The translations under genes and the position numbers were made by a program. From positions 186,001-250,000 of the forward strand of contig NZ_CP047357.1 in the NCBI RefSeq assembly GCF_030408835.1: a stretch of 64,000 bases of DNA, written 5' to 3'. The stretch is from Corynebacterium freneyi. GTDB taxonomy: Bacteria; Actinomycetota; Actinomycetes; Mycobacteriales; Mycobacteriaceae. Under the pieces are notes generated by a model. The model ran no database searches. It had not been told where the DNA came from and saw nothing but the letters and a program-made list of their open reading frames with translations. Every line of letters begins with the position of its first letter. Within the stretch, counting starts at the first letter, position 1. Below, piece by piece: positions 5,048-62,673 of this stretch.

Positions 5048-6112
5048 TCAGGCCGTGGCCGCGGTCCCGGGCCCCTCGTCGGCCGCCACGACCTCGATGA
5101 GCGTCGCCGACGGCGGACAGAACAACCGCACCGGCGCATACGGCGACGTGCCCAACCCGTTGGACACGTGCAGCCACGTCCGCTCGGTCCACCGCGACAG
5201 GCCCGACGCCCGCGACCGGTCGATCCCGCAGTTGGTCACGATTGCCCGCTCGAACGGCAAACACACCTGCCCGCCGTGGGTGTGGCCGGACAGGACGAGG
5301 TCGTAGCCGTCTGCGGCGAAGCGGTCGAGCACCCGCGGCTCCGGCGAGTGCGACAGGCCGATGGCCAGGTCGGCGTCGGCGTTGGGGGCGCCGGCGACGG
5401 AGTCGTAGTCGTCGAGATCATGGTGCGGGTCGTCGACGCCGGTGATCGCCAGCCGCACGCCCCCGGCAACGAACTCCAGCCGCCGGTGCGTGGCGTCGCG
5501 CCAACCACGCTCGATGAACGCGGCGCGCATGCCCTCCCACGGCAGCTTCTCCGTCGACGGCTTGCGCTTCTTGCCGGTCAGGTACCGCAGCGGATTCAGC
5601 GGCTTCGGGCCGAAGTAGTCGTTGGTGCCGAACACGAACGCGCCCGGCCGATCCAGCAGCGGCCCCAGCGCCGCGAGCACCGACGGCACGGCGTCCGCGC
5701 CACCGAGGTTGTCGCCGGTGTTGATCACCAGATCCGGATCCAGCGCCTCCAGGCCCGCGACCCAACGCTGCTTCTTGCGCTGCGACCGCGTCATGTGGAA
5801 ATCGGACACGTGCAGAATGCGCAGCGGCTCATGCCCGGCGGGCAGGGCGGGCACCCGCACCCGCTTGACGCGAAACGCCGTCAACTCCACCTGATTGGCG
5901 TACAGGAACGTCGCCGCCCCGAGCAGGCCGGCACCTCCGACGACGCCGCCTGCCACCCGCGCCATGCGCTTGACGACGGACCCCGCCCCCGACCGTTCGC
6001 CCCCCGCGCCGAAAACCGCGGGAAGGCGGGACGGGGTGGGGGAGGGGCGTCGCAAAGCAAAATTCTTCAATCCGGGCACGGCCACCACGCTACCGTCCCC
6101 GCCCCCGACCAC
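5048..6112 (-). CDS. Membrane-anchored metallophosphoesterase (YkuE/YaeI-like)
   Basis: This is a calcineurin-type metallophosphoesterase with a single N-terminal membrane anchor (MARVAGGVVGGAGLLGAAT, from residue 50) and an outward-facing catalytic domain. The metal-binding motifs are in order: DFH in LHVSDFHMTRS, GDN in VINTGDNLGGAD, GTND in place of GNHD, and GHTH in LVLSGHTHGGQV. Relatives such as YkuE and YaeI act on phospholipid or cell-wall phosphoesters; the substrate here is unknown. The gene is shown from a GTG at 6112, but the first 49 residues are low-complexity. Translation may instead begin at the ATG at 5965. Neither start has a clear ribosome binding site. It diverges from the GatB/YqeY gene. 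Confidence 0.88.
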   Translation of the reverse strand: MVGGGDGSVVAVPGLKNFALRRPSPTPSRLPAVFGAGGERSGAGSVVKRMARVAGGVVGGAGLLGAATFLYANQVELTAFRVKRVRVPALPAGHEPLRILHVSDFHMTRSQRKKQRWVAGLEALDPDLVINTGDNLGGADAVPSVLAALGPLLDRPGAFVFGTNDYFGPKPLNPLRYLTGKKRKPSTEKLPWEGMRAAFIERGWRDATHRRLEFVAGGVRLAITGVDDPHHDLDDYDSVAGAPNADADLAIGLSHSPEPRVLDRFAADGYDLVLSGHTHGGQVCLPFERAIVTNCGIDRSRASGLSRWTERTWLHVSNGLGTSPYAPVRLFCPPSATLIEVVAADEGPGTAATA

Positions 6113-6172
6113 GGCACCGCCTCAACGCGCGGCACGCGCATGCCGCACCCGCGGCGGCGTAAAATCCGCGGC

Positions 6173-6634
6173 ATGAGCGAACTGAAGGCAACCATCATCT
6201 CCGACATGACCGCCGCCATGAAGGCCCGCGACAAGGCCACCGTCGGCGCGCTGCGCATGCTCAAGGCCGCGATCCAAACCGAGGAGGTCTCCGGCGCCAA
6301 GCACGAACTGACCGACGCCGAGGTGCTCAAGGTCATCGAGCGGGAGATCAAGAAGCGCCGCGAGTCCGCCGAAATGTACGCCGAGAACGGCCGCGACGAA
6401 CTCGCCGAGAATGAACGCGCCGAGGCCGAGGTTTTCGCCCGCTACCAGCCCAAGCAGCTTGACGACGACGAACTCGCCGCCCTCGTCGACGCCGCCATCG
6501 CCGAGGCGTGCGGTGACGAGCCCGCGTCGATGAAGCAGATGGGGCAGGTCATGAAGGCCGCGCAGGCCAAGGCGGCCGGCCGCGTCGACGGCAAGCGCCT
6601 GTCCGGTGCCGTGAAGGCGCGCCTGCAGGCCTAG
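6173..6634 (+). CDS. GatB/YqeY domain protein
   Basis: A 153-residue protein that matches the stand-alone YqeY family: MSELKATIISDMTAAMKARD at the start, then EIKKRRESAEMY and the helical tail domain shared with GatB (KQMGQVMKAAQAKAAGRVDGK). GatB-type tails bind tRNA in the amidotransferase GatCAB, but the role of free YqeY is not established. The ATG at 6173 gives the expected family length. Its stop codon sits in the palindrome CTAG (6631-6634), which also supplies the stop codon of the convergent pbp1A gene, so the two genes end back to back with no spacer. Confidence 0.9.
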   Translation: MSELKATIISDMTAAMKARDKATVGALRMLKAAIQTEEVSGAKHELTDAEVLKVIEREIKKRRESAEMYAENGRDELAENERAEAEVFARYQPKQLDDDELAALVDAAIAEACGDEPASMKQMGQVMKAAQAKAAGRVDGKRLSGAVKARLQA

Positions 6635-9009
6635 CGCGGCAGCGGAATCCGACCGAAGCCCGGAATGGTGATCGCATCCGGCAGATCCGGCACGCCACCG
6701 CCGGGTCGCGGCGCGGGAGGCTCCGTCGTCCGGGGCGGCGGCGGGCGGCGCGTGCCATCCGACACCTCCAGGGTCACGGTGCCGCCGTCGAGAAGCAGAC
6801 CCGGCACCCGAACACCCGTCACCGTGCCCCGCGGCCGACCCGTCTGCGACACCGAAACCGACTCGACCCGGTAGCCGGCCTCCTCCAACTTCCGGCGGGC
6901 GTCGGCCTCCTGCATGCCCTCCACCTGGGGCAACGACGCCCTGGCGGTTCCGGGCCCATACTCCGGGGCCATTTCCGGCAGCACCTTGCCGCCATGATCG
7001 TCGATGATCGGCGACACCGCCGAAAACCACGTCCGCGCCGGCTCGCGGCCACCGTACAAATCACCCGAACCACACTGGCGCAGCGGCGACGTGCACAACT
7101 CCGTCACCACCGGCGAATCGTTGTACGCGTACACCGCCGCGGCCAAACCCGTCGTGAACCCCAGGAACGCCGCCGACTGGTTCGACTCCGTCGTCCCCGT
7201 CTTCGCCGCAACCGGGCCATCCCACCGCGCCGACTTCGCCGCATCCTCGGCAGTGCCGTCGACCGTGTCCGACGACAACGCCTGCGCCATCGCATGGGCG
7301 ACGCCCGGATCGACCGCCTGGTCGCACGCCGGACGGTCGACGTGCACCGGGTTGCCGTCGCGATCCGTGACCTCCACGATCGGATCCGGCTCGCACCACA
7401 TCCCGTCCGACGCCAACGTCGCGCCGACGTTCGACAGCTCCAGCGCATTGACCGGCGTCGGACCCAACACGAACGAACCCAACGTGTTGTCGGACACGTA
7501 CTCCGCCACCGACGACTCGCCGTCGAAACTGCCCGGCACCGTGTACGACCGCATGCCCAGGCGCACCGCCATATCCATGACGCCATCGACGCCGACCTGC
7601 TCGCTCATCGCCACGAACGGGGTGTTCGGCGACTTCGCCAACGCCTCCCGCAGAGTCATCGACCCCGGGAACGTGCCCGTGTTCTCCACGCAGTACAAGC
7701 CGGGCGGACAGCCGGCCGCGCCGCCGTCGCCCAACCCCGACGCCTCGTAGCGGCGCGGCACCGGCAGCGACGTGTCGATGCCCATGCCCTTCTCCACCGC
7801 CGCGGCGGCCGCGAAGATCTTGAAAATCGACCCCGCGCCATTGCCCACCGACGTAAACGGCTGCGGCTGAACCGTCTGCATCGCTTCGGCGTCGAGCCCG
7901 TACACCCGCGACGACGCCATCGACAGCACGCGGCGCGAATCCGTGCCCGGCTCGACGACGCTCATCACCTCGGCCACGCCGCCCGCCGTCGGAGACGCCT
8001 GCTCGCGCAACGCCCGCTGCGTGTTGTCCTGCACCACCGGATCCAACGTGGTGTGGATGGTGTAGCCGCCCCGGGCGAGCTTCGTGCGGTCCAGGCCGCG
8101 ATCGGCGAGGTAGCCGAGGACGTAGTCGCAGAAAAAGCCCCGGTCCCCGGCGGCGATGCAGCCCTGCGGCAGACGATTCGGCTCGGGCAGCACGCCCAGG
8201 TCGGTGGCGATGGCGTCGTCGGCCTGCGCCTGCGTGATCGACCCGGTGGACACCATCGCACGCAGCACGTCATTGCGGCGGGCCATCGCCCCATCCGGAT
8301 TCGTGTACGGATTCAACCCCGACGTCTGCTGCACCAGCCCCGCGAGCAGCGCCGACTGCGGAATGTTCAGGTCCTTCGCCGGAATGCCGAAATACGTCTG
8401 CGCCGCATTCTCGATGCCGAAGGCGCCGTTGCCGAACGGGACGATGTTGAGGTAGCCCGTCAGCACCTCTTCCTTGGACATCCCGTCCTCGAGGTCCTGG
8501 GCGATGCGGATCTCCCGCAACTTGCGGCCATAGTCGGTGGCGGTGGCGGCGCGGCGTTCGGCCTCGGTCTCCGCCTCCACCAGGAGCGTGTAGTTCTTGA
8601 TCAGCTGCTGCTCGATCGTCGACGCACCCTGCTGCACCGACCCGGACGTGAAATTGGCCAACGCCGCACGGAACGTGCCCTGCCAATCGACGCCGGAATG
8701 ATCCCAGAAACGGCGATCCTCGATGGAGACGATCGCGTCCTTCATCTCCCGCGAAATCTGCCACGACTCCACCGAGGTGCGGCGCTGATCGTACAGCCAC
8801 GCCATCGGTTCGCCGTTGACGTCGGTGATGGTGGTGATCTCCGGGGCCTCGCCGCCGATGACCGAGCGGGACGACATCGCCAAATCATCGGCGGTGCGCG
8901 CCATCAGGTACCCGCCGCCGCCGGCGACGGGGAAGATCGCCGCGGCGACGATGAGCCCCGCGAGCATCACCGCCACCGCGAGCTTCAGCAGATTCCGACC
9001 GACATTCAC
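6631..9009 (-). CDS. pbp1A: Bifunctional class A penicillin-binding protein with PASTA domain
   Basis: This enzyme polymerises and cross-links peptidoglycan at the outer face of the membrane. The 792 residues run: membrane anchor (about 5-30), glycosyltransferase domain with SIEDRRFWDHSGVDW and the QGASTIEQQLIKN segment, transpeptidase domain with the SxxK serine in GNGAGSIFKIF, SxN as KSPNTPF and KTG as AAKTGTTESN, one PASTA domain (SLPQVEGMQEADARRKLEEA) and a proline-rich tail. The GTG at 9009 places the membrane anchor at the N-terminus; a longer reading frame upstream has no good start. Its position beside whiB4/whcA matches ponA2 (Rv3682) and C. glutamicum pbp1a. It diverges from whcA across a 518-bp gap. 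Confidence 0.93.
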   Translation of the reverse strand: MNVGRNLLKLAVAVMLAGLIVAAAIFPVAGGGGYLMARTADDLAMSSRSVIGGEAPEITTITDVNGEPMAWLYDQRRTSVESWQISREMKDAIVSIEDRRFWDHSGVDWQGTFRAALANFTSGSVQQGASTIEQQLIKNYTLLVEAETEAERRAATATDYGRKLREIRIAQDLEDGMSKEEVLTGYLNIVPFGNGAFGIENAAQTYFGIPAKDLNIPQSALLAGLVQQTSGLNPYTNPDGAMARRNDVLRAMVSTGSITQAQADDAIATDLGVLPEPNRLPQGCIAAGDRGFFCDYVLGYLADRGLDRTKLARGGYTIHTTLDPVVQDNTQRALREQASPTAGGVAEVMSVVEPGTDSRRVLSMASSRVYGLDAEAMQTVQPQPFTSVGNGAGSIFKIFAAAAAVEKGMGIDTSLPVPRRYEASGLGDGGAAGCPPGLYCVENTGTFPGSMTLREALAKSPNTPFVAMSEQVGVDGVMDMAVRLGMRSYTVPGSFDGESSVAEYVSDNTLGSFVLGPTPVNALELSNVGATLASDGMWCEPDPIVEVTDRDGNPVHVDRPACDQAVDPGVAHAMAQALSSDTVDGTAEDAAKSARWDGPVAAKTGTTESNQSAAFLGFTTGLAAAVYAYNDSPVVTELCTSPLRQCGSGDLYGGREPARTWFSAVSPIIDDHGGKVLPEMAPEYGPGTARASLPQVEGMQEADARRKLEEAGYRVESVSVSQTGRPRGTVTGVRVPGLLLDGGTVTLEVSDGTRRPPPPRTTEPPAPRPGGGVPDLPDAITIPGFGRIPLPR

Positions 9010-9313
9010 GCGGTCAACCCTACTGCCGGGGTTTTCAAAGGGGAATCCCCGAATCTCCGAACTTCCCGGGCGCTGCACCGACACCACCACAGCCGCCAGC
9101 GTCGGCAACCTCCGGGGGAGGCGGGAACCAGATGAGCGTCGTAAAGCCCCCCAAGCCCAAAGCCCCCGAACCCCCTGAAAATGAGGAAACACCGCGCCCG
9201 GACCATCATTTTTCCTCCCTCCGTTACATCGCGGGGGTGCCGGGGGCCACCCCCGCAATCCGCGAGCCGGAAAACGTCCTACCTGGTGCTATGGGTCACC
9301 ACCACCCCCGGGA

Positions 9314-11694: not shown

Positions 11695-12781
11695 TGGGCA
11701 CCTCGCGGTGGTCGAGGCCGGTGAGCAGGTCGGCGATGTCGTAGAGGCCTTCGATGCGGACGCCGCCGGGCTGGGCGGGGATGCGGGTGATGGGGTGGGG
11801 CCAGTCGTCGGCGAGTTCGGTGAGGGAGCGTCGTTGGATGCGGGCGCGGGCGGCGACGTCGTCGAGTTCGGCAAGCAGGGCGGTGGTCAGGGTTTCGTTG
11901 CTTGACGACGGTCCGTCGCCCGCGTCGTCGGCGGGGGCCAGGGTGCGGGCGATGGCGGTGACGTCGTCATGGCGGAGGGAGAGTGCCGCGTCGCAGAGAT
12001 CGTCGTCGAGGAGTCGGTTGACCACCACCGATCCCAGCGGCAGGTTGACTTCGGCCAGTTCGTCGAGGGCTTCGAGGGATTCGCGCACGGGCAGCGGTTC
12101 GGCGAGCGTCACCATGTGCACGCGCGTCGAACCCGACCGCAGGAATGCGGCGGTGTCGGCGGCCTGGCGGTGGATCGGCCCGGAGGTGGCGATGTCGCCG
12201 AGTGCGCGCGTGACGTCGAGGAACCGCGCCACCCGACCCGTCGGCGGGGCATCGACGACGACGGCCGACCAGCCGCCGCGCCGGGCTTCGGCGACGATGA
12301 ACCCCGACAGCAGCACGTCCCGCAGGCCCGGGGCAATGGCCGTGGCGAATTCGGTCACGCCGAATTTCCGGGCCGCCGCGATCGCCAGCGACGACCCCAC
12401 GTTGGACGACAGGTAATCCTCGAGCACGGCTTCGGCGTCGAGGGAACAGGCGTGGACCTCGCCGCCGCCCGACGCCGAGGCGACCTTCTCCGGAGACCGC
12501 GGAAACGTCGCGAGCCCCAGCGTCGCGGCGACCGCCGGCCGCCCCTCCGTCTCCACGAGCAGCACCCGCCCGCCATCGGCGGCCAACCGCAGGGACAACG
12601 CCCCCGCGATCGTCGACTTGCCCGTGCCGCCCTTGCCGGTGATCACGTGCACGGCCGCCGCCCCCGGTTCCGGCGGAGACGAAGGCCCCGACGACGTGGA
12701 CGGACGCGCCGACGACGGGGACGTCGTAAAGCCGTCTCCCGAAACCGATCCCGAGCGCGCCCGGGCGCCGTCGACACTCAC
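11687..12781 (-). CDS. bagA: Get3/ArsA-like ATPase, BagA type
   Basis: This is the first gene of the Get3-like pair, 364 residues. It keeps the complete deviant Walker A GKGGTGKST (in VHVITGKGGTGKSTIAGAL), the switch I segment LLVETEGRPAVAATLGL and the switch II VVVDAPPTGRVARFLD. Get3 family members dimerise across the nucleotide site and shuttle hydrophobic clients; here a BagA-BagB heterodimer is likely. The first 40 residues are Ser/Gly-rich and poorly conserved in kind, so a later start is possible. It diverges from the DUF4177-ridA-MBL genes with only 40 bases between starts, which must contain both promoters. Confidence 0.87.
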   Translation of the reverse strand: MSVDGARARSGSVSGDGFTTSPSSARPSTSSGPSSPPEPGAAAVHVITGKGGTGKSTIAGALSLRLAADGGRVLLVETEGRPAVAATLGLATFPRSPEKVASASGGGEVHACSLDAEAVLEDYLSSNVGSSLAIAAARKFGVTEFATAIAPGLRDVLLSGFIVAEARRGGWSAVVVDAPPTGRVARFLDVTRALGDIATSGPIHRQAADTAAFLRSGSTRVHMVTLAEPLPVRESLEALDELAEVNLPLGSVVVNRLLDDDLCDAALSLRHDDVTAIARTLAPADDAGDGPSSSNETLTTALLAELDDVAARARIQRRSLTELADDWPHPITRIPAQPGGVRIEGLYDIADLLTGLDHREVPNA

Positions 12782-12983: not shown

Positions 12984-12985
12984 CC

Positions 12986-13581: not shown

Positions 13582-14391
13582 ATGGAGCATCCTGCGTACA
13601 GCCAACTGCGTCCCATCTCCGAGTCGGTCGGAGTCGTCCTGTGCCCGAACCCCAGCTACAGCTCGCTGGAAGGCACGAACGCCTACGTCATCAAGGCCGA
13701 AGGCGACGATCGCAGCATCGTCGTCGACCCCGGGCCGGAGGACGAGGGGCATCTCAACGTCCTGCACCGCTACGCCGGCGATGTCGCCCTGATCCTGCTG
13801 ACTCACCGCCACGGCGACCACGCCGACGGCGCGCATCGCTTCCGTCAGCTCACCGGTGCCCCCGTTCGGGCGTTCGACGAGCGCTACTGCTCCGACGGTG
13901 TGGAGCCGCTTGCCGACGGCGAGCGCATCGTCATCGACGGCGTCACCCCGCAGGTCGAGGTCGTCGCCACCCCCGGCCACACCGCCGACTCAGTCTGCTT
14001 CTTCGTCCACACCGGCGACGGCGACGATGACGTCGAGGGCATCATGACCGGCGACACCATCGCCGGCCGCCACACCACCATGATCTCCGAGACCGACGGT
14101 GATCTCGGCGAGTACCTCAAGACGCTGCATCTGCTCCAGGACCGCGGCGAGGGCGTGCGCCTGCTGCCCGGCCACGGCGAGGATCTGCCGGACATCACGG
14201 TTATGACGAAGAAGTACATCGAGCGCCGCGAGCAGCGCCTGGCCCAGGTCAAGGCGGCGATCGAGAAGCTCGGCGAGGACGCGTCGGTGGGTGCGATCGT
14301 CGACGAGATCTACACCGACGTCGACCCGGTGTTGCGCCACGCAGCCGAGCAGTCGACCCGCGTGACCCTGCGGTACCTGGAAACCCGGTAG
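13582..14391 (+). CDS. Metallo-beta-lactamase-fold hydrolase (LACTB2-like)
   Basis: A zinc hydrolase of the MBL fold, 269 residues. The metal ligands are visible: LTHRHGDHADGAH (HxHxDH), ATPGHTADS, MTGDTIAG and LLPGHGED near the C-terminus. The C-terminal helical segment (KKYIERREQRLAQVKAAIEK) resembles the winged-helix-like tail of LACTB2-type endoribonucleases. The Rv3677c orthologue occupies the same position. The ATG at 13582 is preferred over the one at 13573 because AGGATGG is 5 bases upstream. The true substrate, RNA or a thioester, cannot be told from sequence. Confidence 0.88.
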   Translation: MEHPAYSQLRPISESVGVVLCPNPSYSSLEGTNAYVIKAEGDDRSIVVDPGPEDEGHLNVLHRYAGDVALILLTHRHGDHADGAHRFRQLTGAPVRAFDERYCSDGVEPLADGERIVIDGVTPQVEVVATPGHTADSVCFFVHTGDGDDDVEGIMTGDTIAGRHTTMISETDGDLGEYLKTLHLLQDRGEGVRLLPGHGEDLPDITVMTKKYIERREQRLAQVKAAIEKLGEDASVGAIVDEIYTDVDPVLRHAAEQSTRVTLRYLETR

Positions 14392-14478: not shown

Positions 14479-14540
14479 GCTTCACGACGACGACAGCGCC
14501 GCCCCTTTCACCTCGAGGGGCGGCGCTTTCGTCGTCAAGC
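14479..14540. terminator. Bidirectional terminator hairpin flanked by an inverted 11-mer pair
   Basis: The core stem pairs AGCGCCGCCCC (14495-14505) with GGGGCGGCGCT (14517-14527). Outside it, GCTTCACGACG (14479-14489) faces CGTCGTCAAGC (14530-14540), the dispersed 11-mer described in the findings, and lengthens the stem. It separates the convergent MBL and glxR genes, so it can serve both. Confidence 0.75.
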
Positions 14541-15428: not shown

Positions 15429-15525
15429 CTAGATGAATATCCTCTTTCGTGGGAGCCGGTCCGCGATGGAATCGGGGGATTTTTGCTTGACGACGGCGGC
15501 CGAAATGGCGCAAATGGCGTGGAAC

Positions 15526-15580: not shown

Positions 15581-16465
15581 ATGACCCCGAAATCAGCGCC
15601 GATGCCGCCCCCGACCCGACCGCAGGGGTCGCTGACGAGCACGCGACGCCGCAAGCCGGGGGCGCATCCGGCGGCGAAGGGGCAGGAGACGCGGCGGGGG
15701 ATGGTGCGTCGGGCGCGGCGCGTGAACCGCACGTTGGCGGTGGCGTACCCGGATGCGCATTGCGAGCTCGACTTCCGCGACCCGTATGAGCTGACGGTGG
15801 CGACGATCTTGTCGGCGCAGTGCACCGATGTGCGGGTGAACATGGTGACGCCGACGCTGTTCGAGGCGTTTCCCGATGCGGAGGCGTTGGCGGGCGCGGA
15901 CGTGGCGGTGGTGGAGGACATCATCCGGTCGACGGGGTTTTACCGGGCGAAGGCGGCGAACATCATCGGTTTCGCGCAGGGCGTGGTCGAGCGCCACGGC
16001 GGCGAGGTGCCGGGGACGCTGGAGGAGCTGACGGCGCTGCCGGGCGTGGGCCGCAAGACGGCGAATGTGGTGCTGGGCAACGCGTTCGGCGTGCCGGGGT
16101 TGACGGTGGACACGCATTTCGGGCGTCTGGTCCGCCGGCTCGGCTTCACGGATCAGGAGGATCCGGTGCGGGTGGAGCGCGAGATGATGGAGGTCATCGA
16201 GCGTCGCGAGTGGACGTGGTTTTCGCACCGCATCATCTTCCATGGCCGTCGGGTGTGCCATTCCCGGCGTGCGGCGTGCGGGGCGTGTTTCCTGGCGGCG
16301 GATTGCCCGTCGTATGGCCTGGCCGGGCCCGCGGAGCCGGAGTCGGCGGAGAAGCTGATCACGTCCCCGGACCGCGAGCATTTGTTGGCCATGGCCGGGT
16401 TGGGGGAGGATCCCGGGGCGGCACGGGAGCTTGACGACGATCGACGTGAGGACGTGACGGCGTGA
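15581..16465 (+). CDS. nth: Endonuclease III (base-excision repair)
   Basis: Endonuclease III removes oxidised pyrimidines and cleaves the abasic site. The helix-hairpin-helix [18 protein letters not shown] carries the catalytic lysine, and the catalytic aspartate follows in [10 protein letters not shown]. The Fe-S cluster motif C-x6-C-x2-C-x5-C is complete ([17 protein letters not shown]). The first 45 residues are a basic, proline-rich extension not found in E. coli Nth. The ATG at 15581 is chosen over an in-frame GTG at 15575 because AGGA is 7 bases upstream. The stop overlaps the next start (GTGA). This gene heads a four-gene operon ending in marP, as in Rv3674c-Rv3671c. Confidence 0.95.
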
Positions 16466-17235: not shown

Positions 17236-18008
17236 CGGGCGGCGGCGCACCCGGCGCGGACCCGGCGAAGGTCCCCGGCATCGAACCCGTCCACCACGCC
17301 ATCGAGGTCACCCCGCCGTGGCTCGCGCCGGTCCTCGGTGACGCCGAAGACCCGGGACTGACGGCGCTGCGCCGTGCGGCGTCGACCGTCGACAAGCCAC
17401 TGAAGAACCCCGACGAATCCGCCGTCCTGGTGCTGCTCGGCGGCGACGCCGTGGCGGAAGATCGGCCCGAAGACGCCCTCGTGGTGCTCACCCACCGCTC
17501 GCCGACGCTGCGACGTCACGCCGGGCAGATGTCCTTCCCCGGCGGGCGCCGCGACCCCGGCGACCGCGACGCCGTGCACACCGCCCTGCGCGAAGCCGAA
17601 GAGGAAACCGGGCTGCGCCCCGACACCGTCACCCCGCTGAAGGTCCTCGACCCCATCGACATCAGTCGCACCGGCTTCGCCGTCCACCCCGTACTCGCCT
17701 ACTGGCACGCCCCCCACGACCTGCGCGCGATCGACCCCAACGAAACCGACGCCGTGCTGCCCGTGCGCATCTCCGACCTCGTCGACCCCGCCAACCGCAT
17801 CCGCGTCGGCTGGGAAAACTGGTCCGGCCCGGCGTTTCGCGTCGGCGACTTCGTCGTCTGGGGATTCACCGGCGGCGTCCTCGACCATATGCTCGACGCC
17901 GCCGGCTGGTCCGTGCCGTGGGATGATGGCACGGTGCTCGATCTGCGCGACACCCTCGCGGAGTCGGCGAACCGGGAGACATTCGGAATGGACGGGACGA
18001 AACGATGA
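17232..18008 (+). CDS. Nudix hydrolase, CoA pyrophosphatase (NudL) type
   Basis: A 258-residue Nudix enzyme. The subfamily-specific sequence HAGQMSFPGGRRDPGDRD runs into the Nudix box end ALREAEEETGL. This UPF0035/NudL pattern marks enzymes that cleave coenzyme A and its derivatives to phosphopantetheine and 3',5'-ADP. The loop LLGGDAVAEDRPEDALVVL before the box is typical of the fold. It lies in the nth-marP operon with 4-base overlaps on both sides. Rv3672c is the positional equivalent. The in vivo substrate is inferred from family only. Confidence 0.9.
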   Translation: MTGGGAPGADPAKVPGIEPVHHAIEVTPPWLAPVLGDAEDPGLTALRRAASTVDKPLKNPDESAVLVLLGGDAVAEDRPEDALVVLTHRSPTLRRHAGQMSFPGGRRDPGDRDAVHTALREAEEETGLRPDTVTPLKVLDPIDISRTGFAVHPVLAYWHAPHDLRAIDPNETDAVLPVRISDLVDPANRIRVGWENWSGPAFRVGDFVVWGFTGGVLDHMLDAAGWSVPWDDGTVLDLRDTLAESANRETFGMDGTKR

Positions 18009-21118: not shown

Positions 21119-21919
21119 ATGACCGACGGAACCACCCGCCCCGACCCGCTCGCCCCCCTCATGGAATTGGAGGGGGTCGCCGAGGCTTCCCGCCGCGCCG
21201 CCGAGGCGGTGTCGGGCGTCCATCGCCACCGGGCGAACCTGCGCAAATGGACGGTCACCGGCGCGGAGTCGGTGCTGCGCGGGGCCCGTGCCTCGGCGTG
21301 GCTGGAAGGCGGCGAGCCCGCCCTGCCGGCGGAGGGGGACGTCACCGATCCGATCCTGGCCGCCGCCCTGCGCGCCGCCGATCCCATCGCCCCCGAGGCG
21401 ATCGAGGAGACCGTCCGCGTGTGGCGGCGCGCCCCGATCCAGGTGTTGGCGCGGTTTGCGCTCATCGCGTCGCCGACCGGCCCGGAGTTGTCCGACGCCC
21501 CCACCGACGCCCGCTCGTCCGAGGCCGGCCGCCCCGTCGGCGACGACAAGTTGTCGGCGGCGATGAAGGAGCAGCGTCTGCACCTGCTCGGCGACCTGGT
21601 CTCCGGCGGGACGTCGGTGCCGGACCCGGTGCTGTCCGCCGTGGTCCACGGCGAAATCCTGACCATGCGCCCCTTCGCCGCCAACAACGGGATCGTGGCG
21701 CGCGCGGCATCGCGCTTGACGACGATCGCCGGCGGCTCCGACCCCCGCGGCCTGGGTGTTCCGGAAGTCCACTGGACCCGCCATCGCGACGAGTACCGCG
21801 AGGCCGCCGACGCCTTCGCCTCGGGCACCCCGGAAGGCGTGCGCCGGTGGATCCTGCTGCACCTGGCCGGTCTGGAGGCCGGAGCCGCCGAAGCCCGCGG
21901 CATCGCCGACGCCGTCTAA
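21119..21919 (+). CDS. Degenerate Fic-like protein
   Basis: A 266-residue, largely helical protein. In its centre, VVHGEILTMRPFAANNGIVA sits where Fic proteins have a helix followed by HPFx(D/E)GNGRxxR. The Phe, an Asn-Gly pair and a late Arg remain, but the catalytic His is Arg, the metal-binding acid is Ala and the first Gly of GNG is Asn. If it is a Fic relative, it cannot transfer AMP by the known chemistry. The closing region has WILLHLAGLEAGAAEARG. The ATG at 21119 is preferred over a GTG two codons earlier. It lies alone, convergent with the HAD phosphatase; role unknown. Confidence 0.7.
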   Translation: MTDGTTRPDPLAPLMELEGVAEASRRAAEAVSGVHRHRANLRKWTVTGAESVLRGARASAWLEGGEPALPAEGDVTDPILAAALRAADPIAPEAIEETVRVWRRAPIQVLARFALIASPTGPELSDAPTDARSSEAGRPVGDDKLSAAMKEQRLHLLGDLVSGGTSVPDPVLSAVVHGEILTMRPFAANNGIVARAASRLTTIAGGSDPRGLGVPEVHWTRHRDEYREAADAFASGTPEGVRRWILLHLAGLEAGAAEARGIADAV

Positions 21920-23651: not shown

Positions 23652-23821
23652 GATGGGTCTCCCTATTTGGAAATGTGGTTTTGCTTGCTCGTCGACCCTA
23701 TCGACCGCGGTGACGCCCGGCGACCCGAGGTTTTCCACAGGACGCGATTCATCCACAATCCGGGCTTTTCGACGGCCCTTCCGCAGTGCTGCAGCCGGCG
23801 TGCCCGGGCATGGTTCGGGGC

Positions 23822-39098: not shown

Positions 39099-39165
39099 CG
39101 CAGCCGTCGTAAAGCACACGCGCACGGGCCACGGCAACCGCGTTTGGCCCGGTAGGCGGCGGATT

Positions 39166-44565: not shown

Positions 44566-44762
44566 GATGCTCCTCGGGAAGCGAAGGGCGCGGGACGGCG
44601 CCACCGGATTCTCCGGGACGGGCCGGGTGATCGGCGGTCACGGTGGTCGTCGCCAAGCCTAGCCAAGCGCATCGGCGCATCGGCAGCCCCGAACGGGGCG
44701 GCGGCATCGGCAGGTGTCCGTAAATTGCGGTAATCGGATCGGGCAGTCGTAAGGTATGCCGC

Positions 44763-46021: not shown

Positions 46022-47077
<1,056 letters not shown>

Positions 47078-49325: not shown

Positions 49326-50192
49326 TCAGCGACGGCTCGCGCGGCGGTGGAACAGTGCGCGGTAGGTGCGCCGGAGCAGGCCGGTGGGCAGCAGCCGGAA
49401 GGCGGAGCGGGCGGCGAAGTTGAACGCGGCGCGCGGCCTCGACACCAGGCCCAGTTCCACCAGCGTCGCCTGCATGCGCCTTTCGGCGGCGACGATGCCG
49501 TCCGACCGCCGCCGGTCGAGCATTCCGGTGGTGCGGAAGCGGGTCAGCGGCCGGGGCAGGTTCACGAAGCGTGCGCCGTCGGCGAGCAGCCGCGCCCACA
49601 GGTCGTAGTCCTCCATGTACGGCGCATCGCGGTAGCCGCCGACCTTCTTCACGCGGGCGGTGCGGTACATGACGGAGGGGTTGTTGATCGGCGAGTTCAT
49701 CCGCGCGTACGCCGCGATCTCGTCGTGCGTTTCGGGCAGCGCGCGGATGCCGGTGATCTCGCCGCCGAGGTCGTCGTCGAATTCGGCCATCGCGGTGCCG
49801 ATGACGTCCGGTGCCGGGCCCGTGCTTGACGACGGGTCGGCGTGGCCGTCGGCGACCCGGAGTTGTTCCTCGAACCGGGTGGGTTCGGCGATGTCGTCGG
49901 CGTCGAGACGGGCGCACCACTCTTCGTCGATGAGGTCGAGGCCGCTTTGCGACGCCGGGCCGGACCCGCGGTTTTCGGGCTGCGGTCGGTAGTCGAGTTC
50001 GGGGTGGGCGGCGCGGTGGCGTTCGATGACGGCGTCGAGGCCCGGGGTCAGGGGGCCGTCGCCGATGAGCACGACCCGGCCGGCGGGCACGGTTTGGGCC
50101 CACAGGGAGTCCAGGGCCTCGTCGAGATGTCGTTGGTCGACGCGGTGGTAGACGGTCATCAACACTGCGAGGTCGGTGCGGGGGGCGTTCAC
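49326..50192 (-). CDS. Family 2 glycosyltransferase
   Basis: A 288-residue GT-A fold enzyme: LAVLMTVYHRVDQRHLDEAL, VLIGDGPLTPGLD, and the metal site CARLDADDIAEPTRFEEQL. YMEDYDLWARLLADG is the acceptor-region ED(Y/W)DL motif common in cell-envelope glycosyltransferases. No membrane helix. It lies 9 bases after the flippase gene and 21 bases before the PpgS-like gene, so it belongs to one operon with them and probably builds the same glycan. Confidence 0.88.
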   Translation of the reverse strand: MNAPRTDLAVLMTVYHRVDQRHLDEALDSLWAQTVPAGRVVLIGDGPLTPGLDAVIERHRAAHPELDYRPQPENRGSGPASQSGLDLIDEEWCARLDADDIAEPTRFEEQLRVADGHADPSSSTGPAPDVIGTAMAEFDDDLGGEITGIRALPETHDEIAAYARMNSPINNPSVMYRTARVKKVGGYRDAPYMEDYDLWARLLADGARFVNLPRPLTRFRTTGMLDRRRSDGIVAAERRMQATLVELGLVSRPRAAFNFAARSAFRLLPTGLLRRTYRALFHRRASRR

Positions 50193-51587: not shown

Positions 51588-52990
51588 GGGCGCGCCGCCG
51601 GATCCACGGGAAACTCGGGCAGTTCCGTCTTGTTCACCCACGCATCGAAAATCGCGTCGAGGTGCGACGTGGTGATGCCCCGCTCCCGGCACATGCGGTT
51701 GGCCAGCGCCCGGAAATCGACCGCATCGACCACCGAATGCCGGTTCGTCGTCGCCCACGTGCGCACGAACTCGAAGAACACCTCGTCGCCGAACAACAAC
51801 CGCAGCGCATGCACCGTGATGGCACCGCGCTTGTACAGGCGGTCGTCGAACATGTCGACCGGACCCGGGTCCGCGATGCGCAGGTCCTGGGGCTTGTCGA
51901 CGAGCTCGTCGTAATGCTTCTTCGCGGACTCCTCCGCCGTCGGGCCGCCGTTGGCCTCCGCCCAAATCCACTCGGAATAACAGGCGAAACCCTCGTTGAG
52001 CCAGATGTCGCGCCACTGCGACAGACCCACCGAATTGCCGAACCACTGGTGCGACAGTTCATGGGCGATCAACCGGTTCCACGTGTCCTTGCCGTCGGCG
52101 TGATTGGCGCCGAAGATCGACAGCCCCTGGGCCTCCAGGGGAATCTCGAGATTGTCCTCGACGATGACCACCCGGTAATCCGGGAACGGGTACTCGCCGA
52201 ACCGGTCGACGAAAAGCTCCAGCATCTTGCCCTGATCGCGGAAGTCATGTTTGACCCGCTGCACCAGATGCGCCGGCGCGTAGGCGATGACCGGCGCCAC
52301 CGAACACGGCAGCTCCACCCGCGAGTACTGGCCGATCTGGATGGTGACCAGGTAGGACGCGATCGGCTCGGCGGAGGAAAACGTCCAGCGACGGCGCGAA
52401 CCGCCGGCCTTCTGCGGCGGCGACGGACGGCCCGTGGCCACCACCGTGTACGGGGCGTCACAGGTCACGGCGATGTCGTAGCGCGCCTTCGTCTCCGGGT
52501 CATCGTCGCACGGGAACCAGCTGGCCGCGCCGATCGGCTGCGAGGCGATGAGCGACCCGTTGGTCAGCTCCTCCCAGCCCAGCTCACCCCACTTCGACTT
52601 CACCGGGCCCGGATTGCCCGAGTACCGCACCGTCAGATTGAGGGTCTCCTCCGGCTCGAGCATCCGGTCGAACGTCACGCGCAGCTTCCGGCCCGACTGC
52701 CGCCACCGGGCGACGTCGACGTCCGAGTTGCGCACGTCGGTGTCCGCGTCGACGGAATCGACGCCGAGGACGTCGGCGAAATCGAGCGTCAGCCCCTCGA
52801 TGTACGCGTTGACCTCGATGTGCAGCACGGCCGTCGCCTTGAGTCGGTTGGGGCCGACGCGGTAGTCGAGGTCCAGGTCGTAATGGTCGACGCGGAAACC
52901 GAGGTTGAACGGGATGCCGGTGTAATCGTTGGTCGGTCGCACGTCCCTCACTGTAAACGGGAGGCGGAACCGGGGCCGCCACGGCATCAT
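51584..52990 (-). CDS. M1-family metallopeptidase
   Basis: A 468-residue zinc peptidase of the aminopeptidase N family. The zinc motif HELSHQWFGN with the downstream Glu in WLNEGFACYSEW is complete. The usual GxMEN segment is altered to NLEIPLEAQGLSIFGANH. It lacks the C-terminal ERAP1-like domain of full-length PepN, so it is a short M1 form. No signal peptide. The start ATG (52990, or the adjacent 52987) overlaps the S9 peptidase stop; GGAGG is 10 bases upstream. Confidence 0.92.
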   Translation of the reverse strand: MMPWRPRFRLPFTVRDVRPTNDYTGIPFNLGFRVDHYDLDLDYRVGPNRLKATAVLHIEVNAYIEGLTLDFADVLGVDSVDADTDVRNSDVDVARWRQSGRKLRVTFDRMLEPEETLNLTVRYSGNPGPVKSKWGELGWEELTNGSLIASQPIGAASWFPCDDDPETKARYDIAVTCDAPYTVVATGRPSPPQKAGGSRRRWTFSSAEPIASYLVTIQIGQYSRVELPCSVAPVIAYAPAHLVQRVKHDFRDQGKMLELFVDRFGEYPFPDYRVVIVEDNLEIPLEAQGLSIFGANHADGKDTWNRLIAHELSHQWFGNSVGLSQWRDIWLNEGFACYSEWIWAEANGGPTAEESAKKHYDELVDKPQDLRIADPGPVDMFDDRLYKRGAITVHALRLLFGDEVFFEFVRTWATTNRHSVVDAVDFRALANRMCRERGITTSHLDAIFDAWVNKTELPEFPVDPAARP

Positions 52991-55170
52991 CCCAGCGTCC
53001 TCCACAACCAGGAATGGATCAGCGCCTCCATGTGCGCGACCTGGGCGTTGTCGGCGGCGCCGGCGTGGCCGCCCTCGGTGTTCTCGTGGTAGTCGACGGG
53101 CTGTCCGGCCTCGCGCAGCAGCCACGCCAGGCTGCGGGCGTGGGCGGGATGGACGCGGTCGTCGCGAGTCGACGTGGTCACCAACGCCGGGGGATAGGGG
53201 CGGTCGTCGCGCCGGGCGATGCGCTGCACCGGCGACCACTCGCGGATCGCGGCGCCCTCGGTCCCGTCGTCGGGGTCCCCGTACTCGGCCATCCACGACG
53301 CGCCCGCCGACAGTCGGTGGTAGCGCAGCATGTCGGCCAGCGGCACCTGGCTGACCACCGCGCCGACCCGCTCCGGATACGACGTCAGGGCCACGGCCGA
53401 CAGCAGGCCGCCGTTGGATCCGCCCCGGATGGCCAGGGTGTCCGGCGTCGCGTAGCTGCGGGCGACGATGTCCTCCAGCACGGCGCGGTGATCTTCGTAG
53501 ACTTTCCCGCGGTTGAGCTTCACCGCCGACGAATGCCACTCCGGCCCGAACTCGCCGCCGCCGCGCAGGTTCGCCTCCACGGACAGTCCGCCGCGGGCGA
53601 GCCAGCCCATGCCGCGCGTCGCCGAGTAGCCCGGCACGAGCGACACCTCGAAACCGCCGTAGGCGTGGACGAGGGTGGGGCGCGGCCCGGCCGCCCCGCC
53701 CGCCGCGTCGTCGGCATCGCCCTCGAAGTCCGACCCGGCCGAGTCGCCGCCACCACGCCCCTCACGCCCGGGGTGCCCGTCGTCAAGCAGTCCGGTGATG
53801 CGGTACGGAATTTTCGTGCCGTCGGCGGACGTCGCCCAGTGCAGACGGGTGGACATGCCGGTGGCGTCGAAGAAGGAGGGGGCGCGCCGGGCGACCCGCG
53901 GGGGCTCGTCGGCGCCGGACCGCGTCAGCCATAGCGTCGCCGGCTCCAGCGTCGACGATCCCGCCAGCCACAGTTCATCGTCGCGCGTGGGCGAGGTGCC
54001 CACCACCGACACCGACGCCGACTCCGGCAGCCCCGGGATCGTCCCCTCGGCCCAGTCGCCGATGGACAAGGGGACCAGTCGAGTGGCCACGTCGTGGAGC
54101 AGCGTCAGCACCAGGTGGTTCTTCGTCCACGCCACCGACTGCAGCGACGTGTGCGCGTCGGGGGTGAACAAGGTGCGGCAGTCGCGGTTGCCGCCGAGCC
54201 ATTCGTCGACGACCGCGACGGCGAGGCCGCCGGCCGGGACGCCGTTGAAGTCGGTGCGGGGCATGAGCAGCAGGTATTCGCGATGCACGCTCACACGGCA
54301 ATCATCGGGAACCTCAATGATTTGCAGGCCCCCATCAGTTCGGATGAAGCGCCGGGACCGGTAGAAATCGATCGCCCGCTCCACGAACAACCGCTCGAAC
54401 CCCTCGGTCGCGTCGAACCACCCGCCGACGGCGACGTCGTCGTCATGCCCGGAAAAGATCAGCTCCGCCTCGTCCAACGCCGTGCCGCGCCGCCATGAAA
54501 ACACCTGCTTCGGATACCCCGACGCCGTCAGACTGTCCGGCCCCATGTCGGTGCCCACGAGAATTTCGTCGCGGCCGACCCACGACACGTCCGACTTCGC
54601 CTCCGGCAGCTCGAACGGCGACTCCGCCACGAACTCGAGGGTTTCCAGGTCGAACTCGCGGACCACCGACGCGTCGGCGCCGCCCCGCGACAGATGCACC
54701 AGGGCGCGGTCGTAGTCCGGGTACCGGCACTGCGCGCCCTTCCACACCCAGTTCTCGCTTTCCGACGACGCCAACGCATCGACGTCGATCAGAACCTCCC
54801 ACTCGGGCTCGCCGGACAGAAACGACTCCAACGACGTGCGCCGCCACAGCCCCCGCGGATGCTCGCCGTCGCGCCAGAAGTTGTACAGGTGCTCGCCGCG
54901 CCGGATGGGGTAGGGGATCCGGGCATCGGTGTCCAACGCGGCGAGAATGTCCCGCTCCAGCTCATCGCGGGACGAATCGCCGTCGAAAAGCGACTCCGTT
55001 TCCCCGGTGCGCGCCCGGGCCCACTCCAGCGCACGCTCGCCCTCGATGTCGTCGAGCCACTCGGGCACGCCGTCGGTCGGCAGGAAACGCGCGGCGAAGG
55101 CGCCGGCGCCGCCATCGGAGTCGGCGCCCGAGCCGTCGTCGGGGCTGGGGTCGGCAAAGGAAAACACCAT
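52987..55170 (-). CDS. Prolyl-oligopeptidase-family (S9) serine peptidase
   Basis: A 727-residue S9 peptidase. A beta-propeller region (about 40-440) is followed by a hydrolase domain with oxyanion and strand sequence HAYGGFEVSLVPGYSATRGM, nucleophile elbow IRGGSNGGLLSAVAL, acid TSTRDDRVHPAHA and histidine TEGGHAGAADN. It cleaves short peptides after proline or a related residue; no signal peptide is seen, so it is cytoplasmic. The ATG at 55170 is chosen because the ORF upstream overlaps the terminator of the mycolyltransferase. First gene of the operon reaching 48184. Confidence 0.93.
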   Translation of the reverse strand: MVFSFADPSPDDGSGADSDGGAGAFAARFLPTDGVPEWLDDIEGERALEWARARTGETESLFDGDSSRDELERDILAALDTDARIPYPIRRGEHLYNFWRDGEHPRGLWRRTSLESFLSGEPEWEVLIDVDALASSESENWVWKGAQCRYPDYDRALVHLSRGGADASVVREFDLETLEFVAESPFELPEAKSDVSWVGRDEILVGTDMGPDSLTASGYPKQVFSWRRGTALDEAELIFSGHDDDVAVGGWFDATEGFERLFVERAIDFYRSRRFIRTDGGLQIIEVPDDCRVSVHREYLLLMPRTDFNGVPAGGLAVAVVDEWLGGNRDCRTLFTPDAHTSLQSVAWTKNHLVLTLLHDVATRLVPLSIGDWAEGTIPGLPESASVSVVGTSPTRDDELWLAGSSTLEPATLWLTRSGADEPPRVARRAPSFFDATGMSTRLHWATSADGTKIPYRITGLLDDGHPGREGRGGGDSAGSDFEGDADDAAGGAAGPRPTLVHAYGGFEVSLVPGYSATRGMGWLARGGLSVEANLRGGGEFGPEWHSSAVKLNRGKVYEDHRAVLEDIVARSYATPDTLAIRGGSNGGLLSAVALTSYPERVGAVVSQVPLADMLRYHRLSAGASWMAEYGDPDDGTEGAAIREWSPVQRIARRDDRPYPPALVTTSTRDDRVHPAHARSLAWLLREAGQPVDYHENTEGGHAGAADNAQVAHMEALIHSWLWRTLG

Positions 55171-57059: not shown

Positions 57060-58475
57060 GTGGCTGAACATTATGATCTCGTTGTCCTCGGCGCCGGTCC
57101 CGGCGGATACGTCGCCGCCATCCGCGCCTCCCAGCTCGGCTTGAAGGTCGCCGTCGTCGAAAAGCAGTACTGGGGCGGTGTCTGCCTCAACGTGGGCTGC
57201 ATCCCCTCCAAGTCGCTGTTGAAGAACGCCGAGGTGGCGCACATCTTCAACCACCAGGCCAAGACCTTCGGCATCTCCGGCGACGTCTCCTTCGACTTCG
57301 GCGCTGCGCACGACCGCTCCCGCAAGGTGTCCGCGGGCATCGTCAAGGGCGTCCACTACCTGATGAAGAAGAACAAGATCGACGAGGTCGACGGCTGGGG
57401 CGAATTCAAGGACGCCAACACCATCGTCGTCACCGACGGCAAGGACGAGGGCACCGAGCTCACGTTCGACAATGCCATCATCGCGACCGGCTCCGTCGTC
57501 CGCTCCCTGCCGGGCGTCGAACTCGGCGGCAACATCGTCTCCTACGAGGAGCAGATCCTCTCCGCCGACCTGCCCGACTCGATGGTCATCGTCGGCGCCG
57601 GCGCCATCGGCATGGAGTTCGCCTACGTCCTGGCCAACTACGGCGTCGACGTCACCATCGTCGAGTTCATGGACCGCGTCCTGCCGAACGAGGACGAAGA
57701 CGTCTCCAAGGTCATCGCCAAGGAATACAAGAAGCTCGGCGTCAAGCTCATGACCGGCCACAAGACCACCTCGATCGTCGACAACGGCGACTCCGTCGAG
57801 GTCAAGGTCGAGGCCAAGGACGGCGGCGACGAGCAGACCCTGACCGTCGACCGCGTCCTGGTCTCCATCGGTTTCGCGCCGCGCACCGAGGGCATCGGCC
57901 TGGACAAGGCGGGCGTCGAGCTCGGCGAGCGCGGCGAGATCACCATCGACGACTACATGCGCACCAGCGTCGACCACATCTACGCCATCGGCGACGTCAC
58001 CATGAAGCTGCAGCTGGCGCACGTGGCGGAGACCATGGGCGTCATCGCCGCCGAGCACATGGCCGGCCATGAGACGGACGTCATCGAGGACTACCTCAAC
58101 ATGCCGCGCGCGACGTTCTGCAACCCGCAGGTCGCCTCCTTCGGCAAGACCGAGGCGCAGGCGAAGAAGTGGGCGGAGGAGAACGACCGCGAGATCACCG
58201 TCTCCACCTTCCCGTTCTCCGCCAACGGCAAGGCGCAGGGCCTGGCGGAGGCCACCGGCTTCGTCAAGCTCGTCGCCGACGCCGAGTACGGCGAGCTGCT
58301 GGGCGGCCACATGGTCGGCGCCAACGTCTCCGAGCTCATGCCGGAGCTGGTGCTGGCCCAGAAGTACGAGCTGACCTCCGAGGAGATCGGCCGCGCCACC
58401 CACATCCACCCGACCATGTCCGAGGCGATGAAGGAAGCCGCCGAGGGGCTGATGGGCAAGATGATCAACCTCTAG
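57060..58475 (+). CDS. lpd: Dihydrolipoamide dehydrogenase
   Basis: The E3 subunit of pyruvate and 2-oxoglutarate dehydrogenase complexes, 471 residues. FAD binding is in [20 protein letters not shown], the redox disulfide in [17 protein letters not shown] binding in [20 protein letters not shown], the second FAD motif in [16 protein letters not shown], and the catalytic His-Glu pair in [13 protein letters not shown]. It matches C. glutamicum Lpd closely as I recall it. The GTG at 57060 gives [11 protein letters not shown], which aligns with the known N-terminus MTEHYDVVVLG. Hairpins after the stop are noted separately. The downstream, opposing gene is ramB. Confidence 0.97.
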
Positions 58476-58589
58476 TCCGGATCTTTTCCGGCGTCGGCGC
58501 CGGGTCGCGGGTGTTCCCCGTGGCCCGGCGCTCGGCTTTTCGACGGTCGTGTCCCGCCGAACCGGCGCGTCCCGCTGACCACCCCTCCG

Positions 58590-60447: not shown

Positions 60448-60539
60448 GTTCACGATGGCCACGCGGCGACCCGATCAGGGCCGCCACGCCGTTCCAAGCG
60501 TTTCAGTGGCCCGTCGTCAAGCAACGGGAACCGAAAGGC

Positions 60540-62118: not shown

Positions 62119-62124
62119 GCGGGA

Positions 62125-62140
62125 TGTGGCGCCCGTCACC
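62125..62140. promoter_or_regulatory. Candidate GlxR site
   Basis: TGTGG-CGCCCG-TCACC matches the GlxR consensus TGTGA-N6-TCACA at 8 of 10 positions and is fully palindromic in its own right at four of five pairs. It is 7 bases from the RamB-like site. GlxR is known to bind the aceA-aceB gap in C. glutamicum. Confidence 0.45.
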
Positions 62141-62673
62141 GACTTAACCGCAGGTAGGTGCCCATGGGAGTGTGACGAACCACGTCGGGCATGGCAAAGG
62201 GGTGAAGGTCACCCCCCGCTTTGGGGTGGCGGGCCCTCGGGTGCCGCCATGGCCCGCCTTCTTCGCGGTGCTTCCCGTCATGCAACGGGGAACGGCGTTC
62301 GGGGGTGATCCGGTCGCGGAAAAGACCCCATGGTCAGGGCCCATTCCCGAAACCCGAACGGGTGGATCGTCGATTCGATCGCCATCACCGGCCCCCGACC
62401 CCTCGTGGTCTCCGCGTATGCGTGAATCCGCGTGGCGCTTCGGCCATCCGACCGCATACAACGGTGCCGCGCGAGACGCGCATCACATATGGTTGTTGCA
62501 TCGCCAGCGGAAGGCGGACCGACGCAGCGGCTCAAGCCGACCAGGCGCCCGAAAGGCGACCACGTCGGCCCGTCGTCAAGCGAGACCCCGTCATCCCGAC
62601 GGCCACACTTTCGCGACGCGCCCGCACAGGGCGTGCGGCGAGCGTGACAACGAACCCTGAATTTAGGAGAGCA

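Follow-up and report, generated by a model that had tools for sequence, protein, structure and literature searches.

Uptake sequences are known as of 2025 only from Neisseriaceae, with their DNA uptake sequences (DUS), and from Pasteurellaceae, with their uptake signal sequences (USS), according to the accessible part of PMC12616744. The accessible part of PMC1626085 gives as their traits a density near one per kb, the absence of orientation bias, a distribution more regular than random with some close opposite pairs, a preference for non-coding DNA, over-representation in relatives and an unusually strong consensus. Here we describe a dispersed word, CGTCGNNAAGC, in a stretch of 64,000 nucleotides of Corynebacterium freneyi (contig NZ_CP047357.1; hereafter the window) and across its genus. 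An initial annotation of the window had read its copies as an uptake sequence, a chromosome-organising site or a regulator site; we find that the first fits nearly all genome statistics tested, the second explains less and the third is disfavoured. By its likeness to the described systems, CGTCGNNAAGC is probably a DNA uptake sequence, a self tag for DNA uptake. We also favour, with somewhat less assurance, a third, independent origin of self-DNA tagging, in Actinobacteria with a Tad pilus and a mycolate outer layer, distinguished by a split word with a group-specific spacer, polar action over about 1.5 kb and an even array of its own on each strand. Within the full-text literature searched, which covered a minority of subscription journals and no preprints, the accessible parts held nothing recognisable on this motif or on uptake sequences of Corynebacterium; in the same sources the motif in IUPAC form had no match and CGTCGTCAAGC as letters matched only work on other subjects. 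The accessible part of a survey of spaced motifs, its supplement aside, lists only CRISPR-derived pairs for three Corynebacterium genomes (PMC5217627).

An exact search of the window returned 31 copies of the two forms first annotated, 25 of CGTCGTNAAGC and six of CGTCGCAAAGC, where about 30 on both strands, six of them CGTCGCAAAGC, had been reported; the 14 plus-strand and 16 minus-strand coordinates given were all exact, and one copy, at 21714 on the minus strand, had been overlooked. The accompanying estimate by composition was about one copy or fewer; 100 dinucleotide-preserving shuffles of the window gave an expectation of 0.26 and a maximum of 1 for CGTCGTNAAGC, and an expectation of 0.06 for CGTCGCAAAGC. 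The family is real but was drawn too narrowly, since any base is allowed at the 6th position and nearly any except T at the 7th. That the 7th base is never T holds for the window copies of the two forms, and one CGTCGTTAAGC, with T at this base, occurs among 100 genome places listed. Upon examining variation position by position in 464 kb of the genome (the window and 20 spaced stretches), we observe a unit CGTCG-N-V-AAGC in which nine bases are fixed and a two-base spacer is free, the second spacer base being almost never T; at each of the first five positions, non-consensus bases occur in at most 10 copies versus 192 for the consensus. Weak flank preferences lengthen CGTCGNNAAGC to roughly GNCGTCGNNAAGCR in this genome, and the flanks otherwise share little, with G at −2 in most carriers of the word and, at +11 and +12, A or a purine. 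In the window we count 47 copies of CGTCGNNAAGC, of which 18 fall outside our own gene calls; among the 31 copies of the two original forms 14 lie outside these calls, slightly more than the 12 or so first placed between genes.

In the whole 2.88 Mb genome that holds the window (G000; other G-numbers denote further genomes of the genus), we found 1,720 copies of CGTCGNNAAGC, 859 forward and 861 reverse, which agrees with the absence of strand bias noted earlier, versus 119 (52 and 67) for the pattern with its letters in reverse order, our control for motif counts. This corresponds to one copy per 1.67 kb, or 0.60 per kb, and to a 14-fold excess over the reversed pattern. For the narrower CGTCGYNAAGC there are 550 forward and 558 reverse copies versus 35 and 33 for its reversed pattern, so the excess reaches well beyond the window. 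Fine statistics for G000 were obtained from a sample of 484 of its 2,880 kb, in which 308 perfect copies of CGTCGNNAAGC compare with a mean of 6.3 and a maximum of 26 in 40 permutations of the same bases.

Next, we counted CGTCGNNAAGC in 242 genomes of the genus, defining carriers as those with at least 5 times the reversed-pattern count and non-carriers as those with less than 2.5 times. Carriers number 167, with 195 (G167) to 1,964 copies, a median of 1,094 and strand totals of 91,381 forward and 91,291 reverse; 68 genomes are non-carriers (median of 58 copies versus 66 for the control) and seven are intermediate. The 15 carriers that were sampled, mostly strong ones, span 51 to 71% G+C and 0.40 to 0.78 copies per kb. 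A first survey of 81 genomes with CGTCGYNAAGC, 49 of the genus and 32 from other families of the order, gave at most 1.6 times the control in the 32 (98 versus 61, in G056), most of which had fewer copies than the control. Additionally, among 80 loci found in contigs by a TadA profile search, a metagenome-assembled genome (MAG) of Corynebacterium sp. (L171) has 18 copies in 21 kb and a MAG of C. urealyticum (L187) none in 7 kb, and the other 78 loci, 1.26 Mb together, have 25 copies versus 47 for the control. The carrier groups compared share the nine fixed bases and differ in their spacers: T or C followed by any base except T is favoured in G000, G137 and G138, GC in G001, G153 and G034, and A followed by any base in G016, G020, G026 and G045, a pattern that resembles the subclade variants of DUS and USS. 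In a tree of 20 genomes built from HolA and LepA (LepA being found in 14 of the 20), with a midpoint root and some weak branches, the non-carriers G039, G041, G006 and G014 stand at separate places among carriers, the pairing of G006 with G012 having a support of 0.62, and five further non-carriers form one group; up to four separate losses of the word would be the simplest reading. Counts of gapped words (5+4 and 4+5 letters, gaps of 0 to 6) in 120 kb each of the non-carriers G010, G014, G015 and G033 revealed no substitute of comparable strength, and the same method ranks the motif first in the carrier G045. A mild excess of GGTGGCGTCG and TTCGACGCC words was seen in G010, G015 and G033; GGTGGCGTCG was considered as a variant word there and is read as codon usage instead.

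We aligned the window to orthologous regions and compared the changes at each site with the expectation for the same base and codon position. Against the carrier G138 (86% identity, 43 of 47 copies covered), the nine fixed positions change at 0.59 of expectation (95% interval 0.37 to 0.84), versus 1.65 for the spacer and 1.45 (1.22 to 1.69) for the flanks, and the fixed positions of the 14 intergenic copies at 0.41. The carrier G137 gives 0.62, 1.60 and 1.50 for fixed positions, spacer and flanks, though it is close to G138 and not independent of it. Against the non-carrier G039, in which 19 copies are covered, the values are 1.37, 1.22 and 1.32. Whole words are retained in 23 of 43 cases in G138 versus 94 of 272 for shuffled control words, and in none of 19 in G039 versus 17 of 198. 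The reduced change at the fixed bases in comparison with close carriers, and its absence in comparison with the non-carrier, indicates that selection maintains the word in close carriers and not against the non-carrier. The distant carrier G153 gives 0.77 at the fixed positions, from nine sites only.

A search for terminases in 28 carriers yielded three loci in two genomes; one terminase, the only one compared, is 78% identical to that of Corynebacterium phage Juicebox. In G153, 28 kb and 32 kb around terminases lack the word, where about 18 and 20 copies are expected at 0.63 per kb; the limits of these stretches were set after looking, and the counts were made in 4 kb bins, which would miss a copy across a bin edge.

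The spacing of the word is more even than random. In the G000 sample the coefficient of variation of the gaps is 0.83 versus 0.97 for random placement, a value reached in 0.1% of 2,000 simulations, and gaps over 4 kb number 10 versus 18 expected (0.9%); gaps over 6 kb (2 versus 4.2 expected) do not differ significantly. Pair statistics were calculated from 971 sites in 14 carriers (1,589 kb), after dropping G137 as a near copy of G138; these and the sampled-carrier statistics exclude the two 40 kb stretches of G153 with its prophage-like regions (L288, L289, L292 and L293) and one stretch of G013. At distances of 0-130, 130-300, 300-600, 600-1000 and 1000-1500 bp, same-strand pairs occur at 0.16, 0.44, 0.68, 0.67 and 0.71 of expectation, whereas opposite-strand pairs occur at 1.29, 1.03, 1.06, 0.88 and 1.02, or 0.61 versus 1.01 over all distances under 1.5 kb. 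Among neighbours 10 to 130 bp apart (pairs under 10 bp were skipped), 49 of 55 are opposite, 32 of them outward-facing. Furthermore, 570 of 906 next neighbours have opposite orientations (z 7.4), and third neighbours do so at less than the chance frequency (359 of 776, z −3.0), whereas second, fourth and fifth neighbours in the 14 carriers show no orientation preference. For 118 control words (8-letter gapped words with a median of 551 copies, kept from 150 drawn because their expected pairs exceeded 100), the ratio for same-strand pairs closer than 1.5 kb ranges from 0.65 to 1.44 with a median of 1.14; the 0.61 of the motif is just outside this range and far from its median, and operon structure should act in the opposite direction. 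The simplest interpretation is that plus and minus sites are not interchangeable, so that the element probably works in a single direction, with one site serving about 1.5 kb. This directional spacing would suit either one-way entry that starts at the word or a polar internal signal of the Chi type.

The latter, a recombination signal read by an AdnAB-type helicase-nuclease, with an even array on each strand because breaks are processed from both ends, is in our view unlikely, though it is the strongest competitor. It predicts same-strand repulsion with independent strands, which fits polarity without showing it; neighbouring large PDDEXK_1 pairs, which we read as AdnAB, occur in carriers (for instance in G000 at 624.0 and 627.4 kb), and the word is absent from the two prophage-like stretches of G153. 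However, Chi is strongly biased to the leading strand, whereas only 142 of 306 copies in the G000 sample are co-oriented with replication (p 0.23, with the terminus assumed at 1.45 Mb). Known Chi sites are also shorter than nine fixed bases with a two-base spacer, and PDDEXK_1 is found in 49 of 49 genomes, with neighbouring pairs in non-carriers such as G014, G033 and G039 as well.

A site bound by a nucleoid-associated or chromosome-organising protein, with structural reasons for its even spread, is slightly less plausible again. The even spacing, the similar density among sampled carriers and the selection on the fixed bases are all consistent with it, but a structural site need not repel its own strand alone, and the lack of the word in 68 of 242 genomes, its several apparent losses and the group-specific spacers speak against such a role.

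We also examined where the word lies relative to genes, using 368 genes called by a simple script of our own that cover 78% of the 484 kb and leave 22% uncalled. Copies number 219 in genes, 86 between them and one on a boundary, at densities of 0.58 per kb in genes versus 0.81 between, a weak non-coding preference; intergenic densities are 1.29 per kb for divergent, 1.07 for convergent, 0.92 for ++ and 0.51 for -- neighbours. Positions along genes are flat, with no gene-end bias. Coding copies favour one orientation (140 versus 79) and one phase, read as Leu-x-Asp or Val-x-Lys; the frames do differ, as the initial annotation stated, but they are used unevenly, with 175 of 219 copies in a single codon phase. 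Because copies are spread over genes and all intergenic types, a dispersed regulator or terminator site is disfavoured and, we judge, very improbable. Some outward pairs, that at 46022 and 46053 among them, form strong hairpins as a terminator might, yet no T-run directly follows the three hairpins that were folded, and we know of no regulon with about 1,700 sites. An origin of the word as a side effect of codon usage or base composition, or from an old repeat family, is hardly credible: the preferred codon phase would agree with it, but 40 synonymous-codon shuffles within genes give only 28.4 ± 4.1 coding copies, at most 37, which excludes codon bias, composition fails equally because the reversed pattern is not enriched, an old repeat is contradicted by flanks that have only weak preferences in common, and the intergenic fixed bases change slowly. 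The initial annotation had held that codon bias explains at most part of the family; the excess stands in both checks then proposed, a genome-wide count against codon-preserving shuffles (here on the 484 kb sample) and enrichment outside the window.

A DNA uptake sequence would call for a machine, and a Tad pilus locus lies inside the window at 23.8 to 28.9 kb (Table 1); by analogy we propose it as the uptake machine, its link to the motif being inferred. In this model, a surface receptor of a natural-transformation machine would bind the word sequence-specifically, with the result that DNA from the same species or its relatives would preferentially be drawn in. The binder could be a minor pilin of the Tad pilus (TadE or Rv3654c-type) or another surface protein, pilus retraction would carry the DNA across the outer mycolate layer, and ComEA and ComEC would import one strand. 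If the orientation of the bound word fixed the direction of entry, plus and minus sites would be spaced independently. We detected comEC in 49 of 49 genomes and the Tad motor over cut-off in 47 of 49, with no match in G024 (a non-carrier, draft) and a sub-cut-off match in the carrier G021; other PF00437 matches are weak and below cut-off. ComEA adjoins comEC in all 20 loci read, nine of them from non-carriers. Prepilin peptidase is matched in 51 of 51 genomes, 48 over cut-off, and DprA in 51 of 51; the TadE model matches 44 of 51, 11 over cut-off, the seven misses being five carriers and two non-carriers. None of comEC, Tad motor, PDDEXK_1, prepilin peptidase, DprA, Rv3654c-type pilin and TadE separates carriers from non-carriers in these 49 or 51 genomes. 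In the carrier G001, the comEC match is split into two overlapping pieces that differ in frame (G001:C4:524862-525658), possibly a frameshift or an assembly error.

We prefer the uptake reading because the word is at once dense, sharp, strand-symmetric and evenly spaced, has opposite pairs and subclade variants, is missing from some lineages and is scarce in foreign DNA, and we know of no other kind of element that combines these traits. Several observations weigh against it. Non-carriers have the uptake genes just as often as carriers do, so the presence of the machinery does not explain who carries the word, and the open reading frame neighbourhoods of the tad and comEC loci contain no candidate that tracks it; a receptor difference of a few residues, or a gene outside those searched, would fit. 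Single-mismatch copies in the G000 sample number 440 over 27 variants versus 308 perfect copies (shuffled words give 156 ± 71 single-mismatch copies), whereas in the USS of Haemophilus influenzae perfect copies outnumber single-mismatch ones. Against the more distant carrier G001, the fixed positions of 14 sites change at 1.02 of expectation and constraint is not visible. The third prophage-like locus, in G045, has 38 copies in its 80 kb region and supports depletion at most locally, as only 8 kb around the terminase are free. Phage Juicebox (L296; host C. xerosis), which has an integrase gene, contains five copies in 41.4 kb, and phage Poushou (host C. vitaeruminis) one in 40.4 kb, and the reversed pattern is absent from both; the density in Juicebox is below that of a strong carrier chromosome, and its copies may reflect adaptation to a carrier host. 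Finally, the accessible parts of the literature consulted describe no orientation-specific repulsion among known uptake sequences.

Table 1. Motif copies (word as read on the given strand) and Tad locus genes in the window; positions are those of the window.
Feature	Position	Strand	Remarks
Motif CGTCGCGAAGC	1794..1804	+	
Motif CGTCGGAAAGC	2807..2817	+	
Motif CGTCGTCAAGC	5968..5978	-	
Motif CGTCGCAAAGC	6048..6058	+	outward pair with 5968
Motif CGTCGTCAAGC	6457..6467	-	
Motif CGTCGAGAAGC	6786..6796	+	
Motif CGTCGTAAAGC	9137..9147	+	
Motif CGTCGTCAAGC	11900..11910	-	
Motif CGTCGTAAAGC	12722..12732	+	
Motif CGTCGGCAAGC	13908..13918	-	
Motif CGTCGTGAAGC	14479..14489	-	
Motif CGTCGTCAAGC	14530..14540	+	outward pair with 14479
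Motif CGTCGTCAAGC	15485..15495	-	
Motif CGTCGTCAAGC	16429..16439	-	
Motif CGTCGACAAGC	17387..17397	+	
Motif CGTCGTCAAGC	21714..21724	-	not in initial annotation
Motif CGTCGTGAAGC	21967..21977	+	
Motif CGTCGAAAAGC	23764..23774	-	
CpaE/Ssd-like protein of Tad locus	23825..24988	+	TIGR03815, E 1.2e-42, 146.3 bits vs cut-off 154.45; start not fixed
Motif CGTCGTCAAGC	24901..24911	+	
TadA-type pilus motor ATPase	24991..26199	+	PF00437, TIGR03819; open frame extends upstream, start not fixed
Motif CGTCGTGAAGC	25564..25574	-	
TadB-like membrane protein	26196..27017	+	PF00482
TadC-like membrane protein	27014..27694	+	named by position only
Motif CGTCGTGAAGC	27364..27374	-	
Motif CGTCGCAAAGC	28021..28031	+	
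Flp-type pilin	28058..28219	+	named by sequence and position; no NCBIfam match
TadE minor pilin, putative DNA receptor	28216..28548	+	NF041390
Motif CGTCGTAAAGC	28503..28513	-	
TadE-like pilin, Rv3654c family, TadF position, putative DNA receptor	28545..28904	+	TIGR03816
Motif CGTCGAGAAGC	29529..29539	+	
Motif CGTCGCAAAGC	30856..30866	-	
Motif CGTCGTCAAGC	31384..31394	+	
Motif CGTCGTGAAGC	32873..32883	-	
Motif CGTCGTCAAGC	34167..34177	+	
Motif CGTCGCAAAGC	37754..37764	-	
Motif CGTCGCGAAGC	38816..38826	-	
Motif CGTCGTAAAGC	39105..39115	+	
Motif CGTCGGCAAGC	42463..42473	-	
Motif CGTCGTGAAGC	43494..43504	-	
Motif CGTCGGAAAGC	43584..43594	+	outward pair with 43494
Motif CGTCGCCAAGC	44648..44658	+	
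Motif CGTCGCAAAGC	46022..46032	-	
Motif CGTCGTAAAGC	46053..46063	+	outward pair with 46022, hairpin-forming
Motif CGTCGTCAAGC	49824..49834	-	
Motif CGTCGCAAAGC	49944..49954	-	
Motif CGTCGACAAGC	51892..51902	-	
Motif CGTCGTCAAGC	53778..53788	+	
Motif CGTCGGAAAGC	54757..54767	-	
Motif CGTCGAAAAGC	54981..54991	+	
Motif CGTCGAAAAGC	57155..57165	+	
Motif CGTCGAAAAGC	58535..58545	-	
Motif CGTCGTCAAGC	60512..60522	+	
Motif CGTCGTCAAGC	62571..62581	+	

Other repeated or avoided words were also observed. A cluster of GACCCCGTGGTTT boxes in both orientations adjoins a dihydrolipoyl dehydrogenase gene at 58592-58723 of the window and is also present in L066 and L074; it looks like a multi-box binding site or a small repeat array, and more clusters of this type occur in G000, where 420 kb of samples contain 20 copies of CCCGTGGTTT. 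In the 484 kb sample, TCGGCCGA is under-represented (46 versus 131 expected), perhaps because a restriction site is avoided, and AGGCGCTG and TCGCGCAG are over-represented about three-fold. Words around GTGGTCGGTTCCGG are repeated in the G016 stretches L121-L125 and L091 (17 to 19 copies in 120 kb), perhaps from a CRISPR array or another repeat, words around GGCGCACGACTAGC in the G033 stretches L111-L115 and L087 (6 to 9 copies each in 120 kb), and TAGTC-rich palindromic words (TAGTCnnACTA and relatives) in the G045 stretches (16 to 17 copies in 120 kb).

Should CGTCGNNAAGC be an uptake sequence, this third case, from a distant phylum and with another pilus, would mean that self-tagging of DNA evolves repeatedly, and natural transformation would be common in a genus for which our literature search gave little on transformation. 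The contrast of 167 carriers with 68 non-carriers and several apparent losses within one genus would offer a natural experiment for finding the receptor and for testing if biased uptake by itself suffices to spread such words. An uptake word could additionally facilitate the genetics of poorly transformable strains.

Among described systems, Chi sites of RecBCD and AddAB, whose properties we give from general knowledge, are similarly dispersed, over-represented and polar, whereas the motif is longer and lacks a leading-strand bias, and its candidate nuclease is also present in non-carriers. The DUS of Neisseriaceae, for which the minor pilin ComP is the receptor, resemble the motif in being short, non-palindromic and present in hundreds to thousands of copies, and further in their subclade variants, close opposite pairs and low density in genomic islands, according to the accessible parts of PMC3630211, PMC7371117 and PMC12616744. 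They differ in sequence and are continuous, whereas the motif is split by a two-base spacer that holds its variants; strand-specific spacing is not reported for DUS in the accessible parts of the literature consulted, and the host of the motif is an actinobacterium with a Tad pilus. The USS of Pasteurellaceae, AAGTGCGGT in H. influenzae and ACAAGCGGT in the Actinobacillus pleuropneumoniae type, are unrelated in sequence and phylum; the motif lacks downstream AT tracts, its flank information is low, and the gene-end bias reported for Pasteurellaceae in the accessible part of PMC2346458 is absent from it. In the available text of PMC1626085 and PMC7811141, however, USS share with the motif a density of about one per kb, neutral orientation, a distribution more even than random and a strong consensus. 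In both, a conserved inner core comes with subclade types and the receptor lacks experimental identification (PMC1626085, PMC7811141 and PMC12616744, as far as accessible), and in both the reading frame favours one orientation, as described for USS by van Passel in the accessible part of PMC2346458 and as observed here for the motif (140 versus 79).

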